A stretch of DNA of 64,000 nt from assembly GCF_002844555.1 (NCBI RefSeq), contig NZ_PJNI01000001.1:372001-436000 (forward strand), written 5' to 3'. The DNA comes from Brumimicrobium salinarum. GTDB taxonomy: Bacteria; Bacteroidota; Bacteroidia; Flavobacteriales_D; Crocinitomicaceae. Positions 10,060 to 28,036 of the stretch are shown here, in pieces; positions within the stretch are counted from its first letter, which is position 1, and every line of letters starts with the position of its first letter. The notes beneath the pieces were generated by a model. The model did not search any database. It saw only the letters and a program-made list of their open reading frames with translations, and was not told the origin of the DNA. The position numbers and the translations under genes were made by a program.

Positions 10060-10078
10060 ATAACAATATTAAGTGATA

Positions 10079-10086
10079 CAAATTTA
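10079..10086 (-). promoter_or_regulatory. -7 element of the LytTR regulator gene
   Basis: Minus strand reads TAAATTTG, matching TAnnTTTG, with the start codon about 20 bases downstream at 10059. No clear -33 element was found. Confidence 0.5.
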
Positions 10087-10749
10087 AGTAATAATTAGAA
10101 ATCATAACTTCTATAAGGATATGAATTTAATATATTCATCGATAAACACATAATTTTTTGGGATAAATTTAGTTAACGCATTGATTTTTAACAGAAAAAA
10201 CAACTGTAGAAATAAGATAGGATTTTAAATTCAATTTTCAAAATCAAGATTAAATTTCCTTTTGATTAAATAAAACTAAAAAAAAATTATTTCAAAAAAC
10301 CTTTATTATTATTATTATACTGTTAATACTGTTCAATACTTTTATTCAAATGAATAGGATATTATCTTTTGAACATTTTTTTGAAGGTTATTCACATGTT
10401 ATACAACTTTTAATCTATTGATTTATAAGTTATATTAGCGGTTATTAACATTTTGAAGTTTTCTAGTACTATGGAAAAGTATTTTGAAGTTTTGATAAAA
10501 TTAAGCCCATTTTAGATGTTCATATCTAAATGTAAAAACTCAAAACTTACCCTTGTTTATTTCAAATGTATTTTGGTTTGGAATTATGTTTTAATAAAGC
10601 AAGTAAAACTTATTGAATTCTATCCACAGTATATATTTGTTTTGTTAATAACTGTGTCGATAAGTCATTTTTTAAAACACATATAAAACAAGGAGTTAAG
10701 AATCTTCATTTTTATGTTTGTTGATAATTCAATATGATTGTTAATTACG
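10087..10749. other. Gene-free AT-rich region with DnaA-box-like sites (candidate replication origin)
   Basis: About 660 bases without any plausible gene, strongly AT-rich, including an A-run (10277-10286) and an ATT-repeat tract (about 10302-10319). One perfect DnaA box TTATTCACA lies at 10388-10396. Sites with one mismatch to TTATnCACA (or its complement) lie at 10442-10450, 10620-10628, 10643-10651 and 10719-10727. Genes to the left run mostly leftward and several to the right run rightward. The base composition makes chance near-matches likely, so this is a candidate only; the parS cluster 15 kb away strengthens it. Confidence 0.35.
10388..10396 (+). promoter_or_regulatory. DnaA box (TTATTCACA)
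   Basis: Exact match to the TTATnCACA consensus inside the gene-free AT-rich gap. Confidence 0.4.
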
Positions 10750-10757
10750 TAAATTTG
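10750..10757 (+). promoter_or_regulatory. -7 element of rpiB
   Basis: TAAATTTG matches TAnnTTTG and lies 15 bases before the rpiB ATG at 10773, giving a very short leader. No -33 TTG at ideal spacing. Confidence 0.5.
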
Positions 10758-10772
10758 TAAAAAATTCTAATT

Positions 10773-11219
10773 ATGACAAATTCAAAAGTTATTCCTATCG
10801 GAGCAGATCATGCCGGATTTAAGTTAAAAGAAACAATAAAAAAGCATTTCAAAGAGCAAGGCTATTCTTTTAAAGATTATGGAACACATTCAGAGGATAG
10901 TATTGATTATCCTGATTTTGGTCATCCCGTTGCAGAACATGTCAGTAAAGATAAAGAATCATTAGGTATTGTTATTTGTGGAAGTGGTAATGGAATCAAT
11001 ATGACTGTTAATAAGCACCAAGATATACGTAGTGCATTATGTTGGAACGAAGATTTGGCAGCATTAGCAAGGCAGCATAACGATGCGAATATCATTGCTT
11101 TACCCGCTCGATTTATTGATGCTACGCTCGCTATAAAAATGGTTGATAAATTCTTAACAACTCAATTTGAAGGAGGAAGACACCAAAATAGAGTGAATAA
11201 AATCGCGTGTGGTGATTAA
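10773..11219 (+). CDS. rpiB: Ribose-5-phosphate isomerase B
   Basis: 148 residues of the RpiB/LacAB family, interconverting ribose 5-phosphate and ribulose 5-phosphate in the cytosolic pentose phosphate pathway. Visible signatures: GADHAGFKLKE at the N terminus, YPDFGHPVAE, the catalytic cysteine C69 in IVICGSGNGINM, the general-base region RQHNDANIIALPARF, and the phosphate-binding arginines in GGRHQNRVNKI. Length is typical. It converges with rnr 46 bases downstream without an obvious terminator between them. Confidence 0.95.
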   Translation: MTNSKVIPIGADHAGFKLKETIKKHFKEQGYSFKDYGTHSEDSIDYPDFGHPVAEHVSKDKESLGIVICGSGNGINMTVNKHQDIRSALCWNEDLAALARQHNDANIIALPARFIDATLAIKMVDKFLTTQFEGGRHQNRVNKIACGD

Positions 11220-13413: not shown

Positions 13414-13514
13414 GAGTAAAATTGTTGTTCTAATTACTTCGTTTTGTTAAGTATGCTATTTATTTGAAACAATTCCAATCTTCCCGTCTCTTTTCTTTAC
13501 TTGTTAATATTTCG

Positions 13515-14082: not shown

Positions 14083-17000
14083 ATGAAGTATTTCTTTATT
14101 AAAACCTTTACATTGTATGTGGTCATTGTTTTATCTCAGTTTTCACTATTTGGACAAGACCACATACAATTTAAAAACTACACTATTAACGATGGACTTT
14201 CTCAAAGTTCTGTAACATCTATTGTTCAAGATCAATTAGGTGCCTTATGGTTGGGTACTCAAGATGGAATAAATCGATTTAACGGAAAGAATTTTCAAGT
14301 TTTTAATTCTGACCAATACCATAAGGTCTCCAACGAATTTATTCATACTGCTTTTAAAGATCGCAACAATAACTTGTGGTTTGGTACCTATAATGGATTA
14401 ACAAAATACAATCCTAGAACAGTTCAATTCAGTGCTTATAAATTTGACAATAAACGCCGTTTAGAAATTCACGCCATAACCGAAGATAGAAATGGAAATT
14501 TATGGATTGGAACAGCCTATGGTAGAATTTTTAAATTCAATACTAAAACTGCTAATTTTGAACTCATTGATGATCAAATTTTTGATTCTAAAATTATAGA
14601 TATACGTAATCAGAACGACCAACTTATTTTTGTTAGTGAATTTAATGGGGTTTTGATGACTGATTATAATTTTACAAACACCATCATTGTTAAGCCTGAA
14701 GTAGAAAATACGGATGATTTTTTAATTACAGGATTAATTAATTCACCAGAACATGATATTGTAATTACTACCAATCGTGGCGTTTTTTATTTTGATTCCA
14801 ATTTACATACCTTTAAAATTTTAAATGATTTATTTGCGCCCTTAGCAGATTATAAAATTATAGATGCGTTATATTTATCTAGGGATCGCCTTTTTGTTGC
14901 CAGTGAAAATAATGGATTATTTCAAGTTACACGACAAGAAAATGACAGTATTAATGTACTCAATTACACTGCAGATATTTTTCAAAAAGGAGCTTTAATT
15001 TCTAATAAACTTAATGGATTATTTATAGATAATCAAGGTTCTATTTGGATAACCTCACAACGTGGACTAAGTAGTTTTAATCCTACATTTATTGGTTTTA
15101 AAGGGGTAAGCACATCGGCTAATTTACAGAAGGGATTACCTTCTCAAAATATATGGGGATTTGCTGAATCTGAAGATGAACGTTATTTATATATCGCAGC
15201 TGATCATGGAATCTCTCGTTTTGACAGAAAAACCCATATTTATCAGCATTATTACCTTAAAGGTGAGTTAATTAATGATGCAACAACACTAAGCATTCAA
15301 TTGATTGATGCAAATACGCTTTTATTAGGAACTATAGAAGGTTTGTTTGAATTGAACATTAATCCTAAAGATGAAACCGATTATTTCTTTACCAAATTTG
15401 AACATGAAGAACATGCACAAAGGGGCTTTGACTTAACGTATACGATTGTTCCGTATCTGGGTGAATCACAATATTTAATCGGTACAAAAGCAGGTGTTGT
15501 ACATTTCGATTATGCAGATAAATCTTTTAATTACTTATTTCATAATCCTGAAGAATCGAATACAATTGGCACAGGACCTTGTCGCCTAATTTTTAAAGAT
15601 AGTACTGACTATTATGTTTCTCCTTCTTCAGGAGGACTATATAAAATTATTGATGACGCTGGAAAACTTAGCGCAACAAGTAATCATGATTTTTCGATTC
15701 TTAAAACGATAACCAACGATTATTTTTCTGATGTTTTTATAGAAAATAATACCCAATATTGGTTTGGAACTATGGGTGATGGACTTATTCATTTTAATCG
15801 TGACACAAAAACAACTAAGAAATATACCAAATCAGATGGTTTACCCAATAATGTGGTTTATGGTGTAGAAAGTACTCAAAATGATCCAATGTATTTATGG
15901 TTATCAACAAACAAAGGAGTTTCTGCATTTAACATTCAAACAAAAGCATTTCATAATTTCACCGAAAAAGACGGTTTAATGAGTAATGAATTAAACCTAG
16001 GTGCAAGTTTTGTTTCTAAAGCTAAGGAAGTTTACTTTGGTGGTATTCAAGGTTTTAATTACATACAGCCTGAACAAGCTTTTGAAATTAATAGAAATAT
16101 TCATGTGTATTTTTCTGGTATTGAGGTTGAAAATGAACCAGTTTTTCCTGAAAAAGACGGTATATTATCACAAAGTATTGCTTATACAGATAAAATTAAA
16201 CTTCCCTACACACAAAGAAGTTTAAAACTCAATTTTTTTGCTAATGATCTTACCCATCCAGAGCGTATAGAATATAAATATGTTATGTCTGGAGATGACC
16301 AAGTTGAAGAGGAACTAGGTTATTCTAATGAATTGCGGTTTACGAGCATTGCACCAGGAAATTATGAATTGAAAATTTACGCGCGTATTTCTAATGGAAA
16401 TTGGAATAAATATCCTGCTCGTTTAATTATTACTGTGGAACGTCCATTTTGGTTAAAATGGTGGTTTTATGCCATAATTATCTGCTTTATTGCTCTTGTT
16501 GTTCTTATTCGTGTGCGAACACGCATGGATAAAGAAAGAAGATTGCAAGTACGTTTAGAAATGAAAATTGCAGAACGCACCCGAGAATTAAGAAAGAAAA
16601 ATGAACAAATTCAACAACAAAAGGAACGTTTACTAAAACAAACCAAAGAATTAGAAAGCGAACGGGTTAAAACAGAACGTTTATTGAATAATATCTTACC
16701 CAAGGAAACTGCGAGTCAATTAAAGAAAGATGGAAGATCAGCTGCACGTGCTTTCAATAAAGTATCCATTATGTTTACAGATTTTGTTGGTTTTTCTAAA
16801 ATAGCCGAAGAAATGAGTGCTAAAGATTTAGTTTCTATTTTAGATATGCATTTTCGTCAATTTGACCGTATTATTGAAAAGAACGATTTAGAGAAAATTA
16901 AAACCATTGGAGATGCTTATATGTGTGCAGGAGGTGTTCCCATTCGTAATAAAACCAACCCAATACACACAACGTTAGCAGCAGTTCAGATTAAGGACTA

Positions 17001-17979
17001 TATGCGAAAGCATAAAGAAGAACAACTTCAAAAAAATGAACCTTATTGGAAACTTCGAATTGGTATAAACACAGGGCCTGTATCCGCTGGTGTAATCGGT
17101 ACAAAACGCTATGCTTATGATGTATGGGGAAATACTGTGAATCGTGCACAAAGAATGGAACAATTGTGTGAACCTGGAAAAATAGCCATTACCCAAGATA
17201 CGTTTGATCATATTGAACCTTATTTCATTTGTAGAAAAAAAGGAAAAATTAAAGCTAAAAGTGGTGTTAAAATTCTAATGTTCGAAGTTGTTTCAATCAA
17301 ACCTGAGTTATCAATTGATGGTTTGGGAGTTGAACCTAATGAATCTTTTCACAAATTGGTTAATCTACATCATTTTAGTAAAATTAATTACTACAAAGCA
17401 GAGCGATTTATTTTAAGTAAATTAAAAAAAGAACTAAGTCCAAAATTGCATTATCACTCATTTGATCATTCTAAAGATGTAACACGTCAAGCGGAGAGAA
17501 TTGCTATTGGTGAAGGTATTACAGATGAAGATTTATTTTTATTGAAATCAGCAGCATCTTATCACGACGCTGGATTTGTAGAGCAATATGATAAGAATGA
17601 GCCAATTGGTGCGCGGATGGCTGCAGAAATTCTTCCAAAATTTGGTTATACTGAAGCGCACATTCAACGCATAAAGGAGTTGATCTATGTTACGCAGGTT
17701 CCACATAAACCTAAGAATAATTTGGAAGAAATAATTTGCGATGCCGATTTGGATTATCTAGGGAGAGATGATTTTCATGAAATTGCTGATCGACTTCGAA
17801 GAGAATTACGCGAGCATGGAAAAATCGATAGTGATCGAAAATGGGATGAAATGCAAGTAAAATTCTTAACGCAACATCGTTACTTTACCCAAACATCTAT
17901 TCAAACTAGATTAAAGAAAAAGAAGCAAAATCTAGCTGAAATAAAAGAACGATTGGCGCAAGATGATTATATCGATTAG
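14083..17979 (+). CDS. Propeller/Y_Y_Y sensor with class III adenylate cyclase and C-terminal HD domain
   Basis: 1298 residues. Signal peptide (1-24); two-bladed sets of Reg_prop repeats (about 25-700) with typical GLSQSSVTSIVQDQLGALWL, NNLWFGTYNGLTKYN and NGNLWIGTAYGRIFKF; a Y_Y_Y domain (about 705-785); one membrane helix (about 790-812); a coiled coil (820-885); a class III cyclase domain (890-1075); and an HD domain (about 1110-1260). Cyclase metal ligands D900 (MFTDFVGFS) and D944 (TIGDAYM) are present. K940 and D1013 are the pair that selects ATP over GTP, and N1020 and R1024 stabilise the transition state, so it is predicted to make cAMP. The HD part has H1125/H1129 (YHSFDHSKDV), H1161-D1162 and D1220/D1222/D1224. 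Architecture resembles hybrid two-component sensors, but with a cyclase instead of a kinase. Confidence 0.88.
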   Translation: MKYFFIKTFTLYVVIVLSQFSLFGQDHIQFKNYTINDGLSQSSVTSIVQDQLGALWLGTQDGINRFNGKNFQVFNSDQYHKVSNEFIHTAFKDRNNNLWFGTYNGLTKYNPRTVQFSAYKFDNKRRLEIHAITEDRNGNLWIGTAYGRIFKFNTKTANFELIDDQIFDSKIIDIRNQNDQLIFVSEFNGVLMTDYNFTNTIIVKPEVENTDDFLITGLINSPEHDIVITTNRGVFYFDSNLHTFKILNDLFAPLADYKIIDALYLSRDRLFVASENNGLFQVTRQENDSINVLNYTADIFQKGALISNKLNGLFIDNQGSIWITSQRGLSSFNPTFIGFKGVSTSANLQKGLPSQNIWGFAESEDERYLYIAADHGISRFDRKTHIYQHYYLKGELINDATTLSIQLIDANTLLLGTIEGLFELNINPKDETDYFFTKFEHEEHAQRGFDLTYTIVPYLGESQYLIGTKAGVVHFDYADKSFNYLFHNPEESNTIGTGPCRLIFKDSTDYYVSPSSGGLYKIIDDAGKLSATSNHDFSILKTITNDYFSDVFIENNTQYWFGTMGDGLIHFNRDTKTTKKYTKSDGLPNNVVYGVESTQNDPMYLWLSTNKGVSAFNIQTKAFHNFTEKDGLMSNELNLGASFVSKAKEVYFGGIQGFNYIQPEQAFEINRNIHVYFSGIEVENEPVFPEKDGILSQSIAYTDKIKLPYTQRSLKLNFFANDLTHPERIEYKYVMSGDDQVEEELGYSNELRFTSIAPGNYELKIYARISNGNWNKYPARLIITVERPFWLKWWFYAIIICFIALVVLIRVRTRMDKERRLQVRLEMKIAERTRELRKKNEQIQQQKERLLKQTKELESERVKTERLLNNILPKETASQLKKDGRSAARAFNKVSIMFTDFVGFSKIAEEMSAKDLVSILDMHFRQFDRIIEKNDLEKIKTIGDAYMCAGGVPIRNKTNPIHTTLAAVQIKDYMRKHKEEQLQKNEPYWKLRIGINTGPVSAGVIGTKRYAYDVWGNTVNRAQRMEQLCEPGKIAITQDTFDHIEPYFICRKKGKIKAKSGVKILMFEVVSIKPELSIDGLGVEPNESFHKLVNLHHFSKINYYKAERFILSKLKKELSPKLHYHSFDHSKDVTRQAERIAIGEGITDEDLFLLKSAASYHDAGFVEQYDKNEPIGARMAAEILPKFGYTEAHIQRIKELIYVTQVPHKPKNNLEEIICDADLDYLGRDDFHEIADRLRRELREHGKIDSDRKWDEMQVKFLTQHRYFTQTSIQTRLKKKKQNLAEIKERLAQDDYID

Positions 17980-24966: not shown

Positions 24967-25386
24967 ATGGAGACAAATTATAAAAACGCAGCGTCCGTTA
25001 CATTTCCTTCGGACCCCAAAAATTTAAGGATAGCCGAATCATTAATCGATGATGTTTGTCATGCGCATAATATTCATGAAGATCATTATGGTAATATTTT
25101 AATTGCCGTAACAGAGGCTGTTAATAATGCCATTTTTCACGGCAACTTGAATGACGTACAGAAATCAGTTTCTGTAGATTCTAAAATAGAAAACAATCAA
25201 TTACAATTTATTATTTCTGATTCTGGACTTGGGTTTGATTATCATAATTTACCTGATCCTACAGCACCAGAGAATATAGAAAAAGAAACCGGTCGTGGAA
25301 TTTTTCTTATGAAATCCTTAGCTGATAAAGTTGAGTTTAAAAATAATGGAGCTAAAGTGCTTCTTACCTTTACCATTGGCAAATGA
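24967..25386 (+). CDS. RsbW-like serine kinase / anti-sigma ATP-binding protein
   Basis: 139 residues, essentially one HATPase_c_2 domain of the GHKL fold. N-box in IAVTEAVNNAIFHGN, G1-box-like ISDSGLGFDYHNLP and G2 in ETGRGIFLMKSLADKV. In Firmicutes such proteins phosphorylate anti-anti-sigma factors and bind sigma factors; in Bacteroidota they sit in this conserved cluster with no adjacent sigma factor, so the partner is unknown. It ends four bases inside ybeY (25383-25386), so the two are translationally coupled. Confidence 0.9.
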   Translation: METNYKNAASVTFPSDPKNLRIAESLIDDVCHAHNIHEDHYGNILIAVTEAVNNAIFHGNLNDVQKSVSVDSKIENNQLQFIISDSGLGFDYHNLPDPTAPENIEKETGRGIFLMKSLADKVEFKNNGAKVLLTFTIGK

Positions 25387-25787
25387 TTGAATTAGAGTTT
25401 GTAGACGTACCAAATCTAAATTTAAACTTTGTCCATAAATGGATTAGTGAAGTGTTGAAAAATGAGAACAAACAAGAAGGAATTATTTCTCTAGTTTTTG
25501 GTTCAGACGACTGGTTGCTGGCCAAAAATGTTGAGTTTCTTCAACATGATTTTTACACGGATATAATCACCTTTGATTATTGTGAAGGTGATTTTGTTAG
25601 TGGAGATTTATTAATTAGTGTTGATAGAGTTAACGACAATGCTAATATTTTTAATGTTTCACGTGAAACAGAGTTGAATCGTGTAATCATTCATGGTATT
25701 CTTCATTTATGTGGATATGGTGATAAATCTGATTTAGAAATTGACATTATGAGAAGCAAAGAAGATTATTATTTGTCACTGTTGTAA
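25383..25787 (+). CDS. ybeY: Endoribonuclease YbeY (rRNA maturation factor)
   Basis: 134 residues of the UPF0054 family, a metal-dependent RNase for 16S rRNA 3' maturation and ribosome quality control. The core motif is NRVIIHGILHLCGYGDKSDL: two zinc-ligand histidines are present, but the third, usually H in GYDH, is replaced (GYGDK), as in other Bacteroidota homologues as I recall them. DIITFDYCEGDFVSGDLLIS is the conserved middle. The gene contains a perfect parS site at 25655-25670, read as NVSRET. Confidence 0.92.
   Translation: MIELEFVDVPNLNLNFVHKWISEVLKNENKQEGIISLVFGSDDWLLAKNVEFLQHDFYTDIITFDYCEGDFVSGDLLISVDRVNDNANIFNVSRETELNRVIIHGILHLCGYGDKSDLEIDIMRSKEDYYLSLL
25655..25670. promoter_or_regulatory. 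parS: parS site 1 (TGTTTCACGTGAAACA)
   Basis: Perfect 16-base palindrome identical to the bacterial ParB-binding consensus TGTTnCACGTGAAACA. It lies inside ybeY, as intragenic chromosomal parS sites often do. Confidence 0.85.
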
Positions 25788-26133
25788 TTAAGGGTTTTTC
25801 GATGAGGTTTACAGCAGGCTTATTCGCTAGAATGCTGTATTATTGAATTGCGATATATTGTTTATCATTCAAATTTGTTGCTTATAAAAGGTTGTTTTAC
25901 CCCATCTTTAATTGCTGTCTGTGTTTAACTAAGTTAGTGAATTTTTTATTTTTAATTTGCTCAATCACCCCAATGTAGTATTTGGTCTAAACGAATAATC
26001 CTACAATATCTTCCTTACTTGTTTCACGTGAAACGTTTTTTATTGTGAGTGGTTGTGTTTGTTTCTTTTTTTATAAAAAAGTCGCAAAACTATTTATAAA
26101 AAAGATGTTTACTATCCATCTCTGTTGTAACTT
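25788..26133. other. Intergenic region between ybeY and mnmG
   Basis: About 345 bases with no credible gene. It holds one parS-like site (26020-26035), and a second begins at its right-hand end (26134). I found no DnaA box and no TAnnTTTG element close to mnmG. Confidence 0.6.
26020..26035. promoter_or_regulatory. parS: parS-like site 2 (TGTTTCACGTGAAACG)
   Basis: 15 of 16 bases match the ParB consensus; only the last base differs. Intergenic, 350 bases after site 1. Confidence 0.8.
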
Positions 26134-26149
26134 TGTTCCACGGGAAACA
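26134..26149. promoter_or_regulatory. parS: parS-like site 3 (TGTTCCACGGGAAACA)
   Basis: 15 of 16 bases match TGTTnCACGTGAAACA (a G replaces T at position 10). It ends eight bases before the mnmG start codon, so ParB binding could affect mnmG expression. Confidence 0.7.
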
Positions 26150-26156
26150 AAGATTT

Positions 26157-28022
26157 ATGCTTAGAGATTATGATGTTATAGTAGTGGGTGCGGGTCACGC
26201 TGGGTGTGAGGCTGCAAATGCTGCTGCAAAACTTGGGGCTTCTACCCTAGTTGTTACTATGAATATGAATACTATTGCGCAAATGTCTTGTAATCCAGCT
26301 ATGGGTGGAGTTGCTAAAGGACAGATTTTGCGCGAAATTGATGCGCTTGGTGGAGGTTCTGCTATCGTTTCTGATAAAACTGCTATTCAGTTCCGTATGC
26401 TTAATTTAAGTAAAGGCCCAGCTATGTGGTCACCAAGAACTCAAAATGATAGAATGCGTTTCGCTGAGGAATGGCGTTTGACATTAGAAGCAAATCCTAA
26501 TGTTGATTTTTGGCAAGATATGGTTACTGGAATCACTTCAGAAGACGGTAAGATTACTGGCGTGAGAACCCGGATGGGAATGGAAATTAAAGCCCAAACT
26601 GTGATTTTAACAAGCGGTACTTTCTTGAATGGTACAATTCATCTTGGAGAAAATCAATATGGTGGCGGACGTGCTGGTGAAGGTGCTTCAACTGGAATAA
26701 CAGAGGACTTAGTTAAACTTGGTTTTGACTATGGTAGAATGAAAACTGGAACACCTCCTCGTGTTGACGGTCGATCTTTAGATTATTCTAAAATGGAGGT
26801 TCAAGCTGGAGATAATGTTACATCTAAATTTAGTTTTACTGATGAAACAGAGCCTTTGAAAGAACAAAGGCCTTGTCATGTTGCGTATACTAATCCAAAA
26901 ACACATGAGATTCTACGAACTGGTTTCGATAGAAGTCCAATGTTTAATGGTGCTATTCAATCTGCTGGACCAAGATATTGTCCAAGTATTGAAGATAAAA
27001 TCTCACGTTTTGCTGAAAGAGAAAGACATCAGTTATTTGTTGAGCCCGAAGGATGGAACACGGTTGAGATTTATGTAAATGGTTTCAGTACAAGTTTGCC
27101 GGAAGAAGTACAATTAGAAGCGTTAAAAACAGTTCCTGGATTTGAAGAAGTGAAAATGTTTCGACCAGGTTATGCCATCGAATATGACTACTTCCCTCCT
27201 ACTCAATTAAAACATACTTTGGAAACAAAGCTTATTTCTGGATTGTATTTCGCTGGACAAATTAATGGAACTACAGGTTACGAAGAAGCCGCTTGTCAAG
27301 GTTTAATGGCTGGAATAAATGCAGCTCGAAAAGTTCAAGGGAAAGAAATATTCACTTTGAGTAGATCTGATGCTTACATCGCAGTTCTAATTGACGATTT
27401 GATTACTAAAGGTACAGAAGAGCCATATAGGATGTTTACTTCTCGTGCGGAATATAGAATTCTTTTGCGGCAGGACAACGCTGATTTAAGGCTCTCACCT
27501 ATCGCACATGCTATCGGAATGATCTCCGATGAAAGGATGGAAAAGGTTAATCTCAAAAACGAACAAGTTGCTCAGCTTAAGCGCAAACTCAAAAAAGTGG
27601 GTGTTAAACCCGAGAAGGCGAATCCCGTTTTAGAAAATTATAAGTCGTCTCCTATAAAGCAACAGGTGAAATTAACTCAATTGATTACGCGGCCTAATAT
27701 AGGGATGGATCAGCTTTTAGAGATGAGTACAGAATTGCAATCCCATGTTGAAAATCTTTCAAAAGAAGTTTTGGAGCAGGTTGAAATTCAACTAAAGTAT
27801 GATGGGTACATTAGTCGAGAACAAGATGTCGCTAATAAGTTAAACCGTTTGGAAGATGTTTCAATTTCTGATGATATCGATTATTCTAAATTAAGTAGTT
27901 TAAGTTCTGAAGCGGTTAACAAGCTTTCCGAAATAAAACCTACTACAATTGGACAAGCTTCACGAATTAGTGGTGTTTCACCTAGCGATGTGAATGTTCT
28001 TTTGATATATTTGGGCCGATAG
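26157..28022 (+). CDS. mnmG: tRNA uridine-5-carboxymethylaminomethyl modification enzyme MnmG (GidA)
   Basis: 621 residues from the ATG at 26157 ([20 protein letters not shown]). The open frame reaches a TTG at 26133, but that lies in the parS site. MnmG is the FAD-binding partner of MnmE in forming cmnm5U at the wobble position of several tRNAs. Visible: GxGxxG dinucleotide motif in [85 protein letters not shown]; and the C-terminal helical domain for MnmE and tRNA binding. Length is typical. Confidence 0.97.
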
Positions 28023-28036
28023 TTTCATGTGAAACA
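28021..28036. promoter_or_regulatory. parS: Diverged parS-like site 4 (AGTTTCATGTGAAACA)
   Basis: 14 of 16 bases match the ParB consensus, with the palindrome mostly kept. It overlaps the mnmG stop codon and may be a weak site. Confidence 0.5.

Follow-up and report, generated by a model that had tools for sequence, protein, structure and literature searches.

A ybeY gene (25383–25787, plus strand; Pfam PF02130) and, behind it, mnmG (gidA), which encodes a tRNA modification enzyme (26157–28022, plus strand; identified from its translation by TIGR00136 at 4.3e-256), lie in the 64-kb stretch of Brumimicrobium salinarum DNA analysed here, referred to as the window. Four matches to the 16-bp palindrome TGTTTCACGTGAAACA are placed in and around these two genes and are numbered here as parS sites 1 to 4. 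Site 1 (25655–25670) is a perfect match within the ybeY coding sequence. Site 2 (26020–26035) carries one mismatch and is located in about 343 extra bases between the two genes. Site 3 (TGTTCCACGGGAAACA, 26134–26149), the conserved mnmG-proximal site, has two mismatches and ends 7 bases 5′ of the mnmG ATG (26157). Site 4 (AGTTTCATGTGAAACA, 28021–28036) also has two mismatches and covers the final two bases of the mnmG stop codon (28022). A sequence-only reading of the window had described a perfect site inside ybeY, a site of 14 of 16 bases at 28021 and a third site against the mnmG start, all of which were recovered. Its score of 15 of 16 is correct for 26020; for 26134 it is correct only against the degenerate TGTTnCACGTGAAACA, the fixed palindrome being matched there at 14 of 16 bases.

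The same reading held that the window has no other good match and that such a cluster is unlikely by chance, and both statements are borne out. When up to three mismatches are allowed, the 64 kb contain four matches to TGTTTCACGTGAAACA and no more, all at mnmG; 100 dinucleotide shuffles of the window gave a mean of 0.49 matches and a maximum of 2, and none reached four or more. A scan of the whole draft genome (86 contigs totalling 3,413,539 bases; completeness 98.2%) that allowed two mismatches, as had been proposed, returned the four sites of the window and one poor fifth match (TGTTTGACCTGAAACA, C76:129409), so that good sites cluster here and are not scattered. Thirty further genome positions with exactly three mismatches are scattered; they are regarded as background because the control pattern, TGTTTCACGTGAAACA read backwards, gives 24 matches at up to three mismatches. 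Elsewhere in the window, RNA-family and tRNA scans found one tRNA only, and positions 14083–17979 encode a 1298-residue protein in which two-component propeller repeats and a Y_Y_Y domain are joined to nucleotide cyclase catalytic and HD domains.

Conservation and turnover of the sites at mnmG

Loci for comparison were selected by MnmG and not by parS, giving 80 named loci, or 81 with the window; the window's MnmG shares 86% identity with the Brumimicrobium glaciale protein. Of the 80 named loci, 79 match the fixed palindrome at least once with no more than two mismatches, the exception being L084. When the degenerate TGTTYCACGTGRAACA was used with up to one mismatch, sites near mnmG were found in 79 of the 81 loci and were absent from L078 and L084. 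Across the 81 loci, 181 sites fall within −700 to +2600 of the mnmG start, compared with 4 elsewhere, and the central CACGTG, taken on both strands' terms, is retained in nearly every one of these 181. Five of six control palindromes gave 0, 2, 0, 4 and 0 hits; the sixth gave 45 and is not a fair control because it is only two changes away from parS.

All 30 sites detected in 11 named genomes searched in full are within 2 kb of the mnmG start. In a sample of 296 Bacteroidota genomes, 273 contain at least one parS match, mostly in one to three copies and in up to ten, and 23 contain no site by the pattern used in this whole-genome scan; the reversed control pattern gave 0 to 2. Site coordinates were compared with those of mnmG in 32 genomes (31 plus the genome of the window, G000). 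At least one parS adjoins mnmG in 25 of them, five of which (G237, G229, G016, G048 and G117) have one additional site elsewhere. In the other seven, parS is located away from mnmG, at about 26 kb in G165 and G071, about 118 kb in G177 and on a different contig in G161, G157, G063 and G036. The anchoring of the cluster at mnmG is old, and many of the Bacteroidota examined have it, though not every one. In G177, a parS-like sequence with a single mismatch was also noticed inside the dnaA match (G177:C1:890186-890201), probably by chance.

Comparison with the four closest loci points to turnover of individual sites. Three good sites are present in L020 and in two loci named Brumimicrobium, L018 and L031: one in ybeY, one at the promoter of mnmG and one at its stop codon, the last reading AGTTTCACGTGAAACA in all three loci; in L019, a metagenome-assembled genome named Fluviicola sp., the third of these sites has two mismatches. 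The site in the ybeY-equivalent ORF is positioned at −160 of mnmG in L018, L019 and L031 and at −158 in L020. It is separated from the promoter site by 136 bp in these four loci versus 479 bp in the window, and the difference corresponds to the extra stretch of ~343 bases (approximately 25788–26130) that holds site 2 and is missing from the four loci. This stretch is single copy in the genome, and a dispersed repeat carrying parS was rejected on that ground. The last ~30 bases of ybeY (25757–25787) resemble its right end (26100–26130) at 23 of 30 positions, a likeness score reached by none of 1000 shuffles. The changes in sites 3 and 4 fall at positions that are nearly invariant elsewhere. Site 3 is probably weakened, because its central T to G change occurs in no other of the 181 sites; site 4, which differs from its sisters by a C to T change, is probably weakened as well. 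Two of three ancestral sites thus look eroded, and a new one appears to have arisen inside the extra bases. The simplest reading is that a local duplication or insertion brought one new site and that two old ones lost strength.

ParA, ParB and SMC

One ParB match is encoded in the genome (C12:266391; TIGR00180, 186 bits, above the cut-off), with the Pfam domains ParB_N, HTH_ParB and ParB_C. It lies directly behind a ParA-like ORF, named as such from its sequence only, and the absence of parB, which had been put forward as an argument against a ParB-loading region, is not what was seen. The protein contains the motifs GERRFKAS and ENIQR, which we take to be CTP-site motifs. When aligned to Noc, a member of a related protein family that recognizes a similar palindrome (NBS), it carries R and G in place of the Noc residues Q and R, respectively. 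The corresponding R173 and G201 (Caulobacter numbering) are described as parS-specific, kept in all ParB orthologs and changed in Noc (PMC7383237). The alignment taken with this report indicates residues that select parS over NBS, and Noc-type residues were found at neither of the two specificity positions. NBS sites are also reported to be scattered round the chromosome (PMC4331003), unlike the clustered sites here. Both dnaA and parB are on one contig that differs from that of the window, so nothing shows dnaA near the cluster; in the complete relatives the two are far apart.

SMC was searched for with TIGR02168 at a cut-off of 567 bits. No match above the cut-off was obtained in G000, G117, G169, G296 or G297, the best in G000 reaching 29.7 bits; SMC is present at about 1000 bits in G268, G032, G301 and G302. 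A component that a ParB–SMC loading platform includes is thus missing from the genome of the window as judged by TIGR02168. In the 296-genome sample, 247 genomes have a TIGR02168 match at E ≤1e-60, 243 of them above the cut-off. The 49 without a match (20 named, the others obtained by subtracting the 247 matching entries from the sample) include 46 that belong to the same class as the window, which amounts to 46 of the 76 genomes of that class, the window's own included. The division follows families: f1, f2, f5, f6, f9, f10 and f11 have no TIGR02168 match in any of their 46 genomes, and f3, f4, f7 and f8 have one in all 30. A parS match is retained in 43 of the 46 genomes lacking a TIGR02168 match, the exceptions being G087, G189 and G248. 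SbcC_Walker_B, presumably a domain of SbcC- and MksB-type proteins, is absent from G000 and above its cut-off in G296, G297 and G301. Two gut Bacteroidetes have likewise been described as having no known condensins (PMC10197239).

Position relative to the replication origin

For GC skew, twenty 20-kb stretches were sampled from each of four single-contig relatives (G169, G117, G268 and G032), and all positions were ranked by the fit of an origin with the terminus opposite; plain skew was used, fourfold-site skew being noisier. With mnmG as the origin, the fit is within the top 2.9%, 3.7%, 1.2% and 16.5% of all positions, respectively, and with dnaA as the origin it ranks at 50%, 80%, 85% and 67%. 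Permuted stretches reached the mnmG score in 0, 5, 0 and 2 of 2000 trials. The best-fit origin is 32 kb, 107 kb, 2 kb and 254 kb from mnmG, and in G169, G117 and G268 it is more than 1 Mb from dnaA. The skew-derived origin therefore fits mnmG better than dnaA in the four relatives, G032 being weak. On the window's own contig, 6 of 10 stretches ahead of the window have negative skew and 5 of 7 past it have positive skew, a weak sign change; within the window, cumulative skew is lowest at 13,500, 12 kb ahead of the first parS. The earlier proposal that the cluster is origin-proximal is thus supported by the clustering in its own genome and by skew in relatives, clearly in three of four; the skew of its own fragmented genome lends it weak support.

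For this phylum, replication origins close to mnmG and distant from dnaA have been published before, and this part of the analysis is not new because the published origins agree with it. The oriC of Mariniflexile litorale was placed adjacent to mnmG and far from dnaA by Ori-Finder and skew (PMC11278836); in the legend of figure 3 of that paper, oriC is assigned to leuB_2 and dnaA and ter to mnmG, the opposite of its own text. In Algorimicrobium, oriC is predicted beside mnmG in agreement with GC skew (PMC12843772), and a paper on Prevotella intermedia states that oriC of Bacteroidetes is commonly far from dnaA (PMC4755523). The present case resembles Mariniflexile litorale and Algorimicrobium in a predicted origin beside mnmG and its agreement with skew, and with Mariniflexile litorale and Prevotella intermedia it would share an oriC distant from dnaA; the portions of these three origin papers at hand make no mention of parS. 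In a mouse gut Hi-C study, parS clusters and skew place the origins, not always at dnaA (PMC10197239). Two Bacteroidetes there are like the present case in having origins marked by parS clusters, not by dnaA, and no known condensin; they are different species, and in the accessible part of the report their sites are not tied to mnmG or a promoter.

A tentative oriC within the window is the gap of 713 bp that separates a LytTR response regulator gene from rpiB (10060–10772), 15 kb from the parS cluster. It holds TTATTCACA together with near-matches; it is very AT-rich, with few parts of the window more so, and two Brumimicrobium relatives retain it in part. The DnaA box consensus, which we take to be TTATNCACA, occurs exactly only five times in the window, and exact boxes were rejected as a marker of oriC since the five are scattered. 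Near-matches number 27 and are densest at 10388–10888; the gap is only a tentative candidate because it was picked by these near-matches, and its designation as oriC is a guess that may well prove wrong.

In the related loci, exact TTATNCACA boxes show a peak between +4.0 and +5.0 kb relative to the start of mnmG, with 59 boxes in 76 loci as opposed to 0 to 10 per 500-bp bin elsewhere. Fifty-five of the 59 belong to 25 of the loci L071–L096 and the other 4 to the 51 other loci of sufficient length, and the peak is therefore of no help for the window's own relatives. Two or more exact boxes are found at about +4.0 to +5.0 kb in 17 of these 25 loci, and the region is likely to be oriC in those genomes, judging from the boxes. 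L084, which has no parS by the pattern, has the most boxes, up to six within 400 bp.

Promoter overlap, alternative explanations and significance

The sigma-A −7 box of flavobacteria is reported as TAnnTTTG and is at −12 to −5 in Flavobacterium psychrophilum (PMC9723704). A predicted box of this type, TAACTTTG, is located upstream of mnmG (26128–26135, plus strand) and has two bases in common with site 3. Because the box would be at −12 to −5, mnmG transcription is predicted to start at about 26140, inside site 3, and ParB bound to the proximal site would sit on the mnmG start. A TAnnTTTG starting exactly six bases before the proximal parS (offset −6), and thereby covering the first two bases of the site, is present in 26 of the 79 loci with a proximal site, a sequence count from related loci and not one of independent events. 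Shuffled upstream bases gave a mean of 1.1 and at most 7 such boxes in 1000 trials. The TA of the box is part of the upstream ORF stop codon in 4 of the 26 loci (L018, L019, L020 and L031) and not in the other 22. No TAnnTTTG at offset −6 was found among loci L065 to L097.

This overlap speaks for the view that the palindrome is mainly an operator of mnmG transcription, bound by a repressor or by ParB acting as a regulator only, and not a centromere. Such an operator is improbable, given that extra copies are present inside ybeY and past mnmG in many loci, that the same sequence is placed away from mnmG in seven of 32 genomes, that it equals the parS consensus in a genome with parB, and that none of the loci L065 to L097 has the box at offset −6. 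An RNA hairpin in the mnmG leader, written TGTTTC-ACGT-GAAACA, has in its favour that the element could pair with itself and that the proximal site begins 20 to 40 bases ahead of the start codon in most loci. It was rejected because C and A face each other at inner stem positions 5 and 12 in 61 of the 181 sites (34 of the 79 proximal ones), which breaks the stem; moreover, ACGT, the supposed loop, is conserved to the same degree as the stem, and in loci with the −7 box the predicted transcript would begin within the site. We consider the hairpin very improbable. The invariant CACGTG and the variable positions 5 and 12 fit the pattern of a DNA-binding dimer and the tolerance expressed by TGTTnCACGTGAAACA.

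A chance cluster in AT-rich DNA has a negligible probability: the site at 28021, with its two mismatches, could be fortuitous if taken alone, but the shuffles and the positions kept in relatives refute this explanation for the four together. It is also conceivable, and only slightly more probable than the operator, that the sites are true parS and the origin is elsewhere, for example at dnaA. The noisy skew of the own genome and the poor fit of G032 agree with this; against it stand the best-fit origins of the three complete relatives, close to mnmG and remote from dnaA, and the published placement of oriC at mnmG in Flavobacteriaceae (PMC11278836, PMC12843772) and commonly far from dnaA (PMC4755523).

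The four palindromes are thus very likely parS centromere sites of a chromosomal ParABS system in the origin-proximal region of a Brumimicrobium-like bacterium, a reading supported in that the good sites are not scattered and parB is present; its origin-proximal part is supported by the clustering and by skew in complete relatives. We infer that ParB dimers would bind the sites, load CTP and slide into adjacent DNA, that a single ParB-rich patch would form over ybeY-mnmG, and that ParA would separate the patches after replication; the exact position of the origin is likewise an estimate. No SMC was found by TIGR02168 for loading in this lineage, and partition may proceed by ParA and ParB alone or with a partner of another kind. 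ParABS of Bacillus subtilis and Caulobacter combines a 16-bp parS, ParB/Spo0J, a parA-parB pair and several sites within a few kilobases near the origin. The system described here shares with it the 16-bp palindrome, the HTH and CTP-type ParB motifs, the gene pair and the clustered sites, but differs in that parAB is on another contig than the sites, there is no sign of a nearby dnaA and no SMC was found.

As a chromosomal parS cluster near the origin, the finding is of an ordinary biological kind; it stands out from the routine by its fixed seat at mnmG, the exact promoter overlap and the SMC-less setting. Among the matches listed in a literature search, no title or beginning of an abstract joined parS to mnmG, to promoter overlap or to clade-wide SMC-less parS, though the parS survey of Livny et al. 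2007 (cited by PMC10197239) may list sites of the phylum. The overlap with a promoter box at one offset, the genomes of the window's class that have parS but no SMC by TIGR02168, and the site turnover in the window were accordingly not found in print within that scope. A more speculative proposal, which we regard as rather unlikely, is that in a large SMC-less part of Bacteroidota parS was captured by the mnmG promoter, so that ParB loaded at the freshly replicated origin would lie over the mnmG start, switch the gene and couple its expression to origin segregation, the patch segregating the chromosome without SMC. Overlap by itself does not equal regulation; it hints, in a way that is simple to test, that segregation and the expression of mnmG may be coupled. 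Genomes across a clade keep parS without a recognisable SMC, which makes a ParB role without SMC testable in laboratory Flavobacterium. For many Bacteroidota, in which dnaA misleads, mnmG provides a gene-level address for the centromere and, approximately, for the origin.
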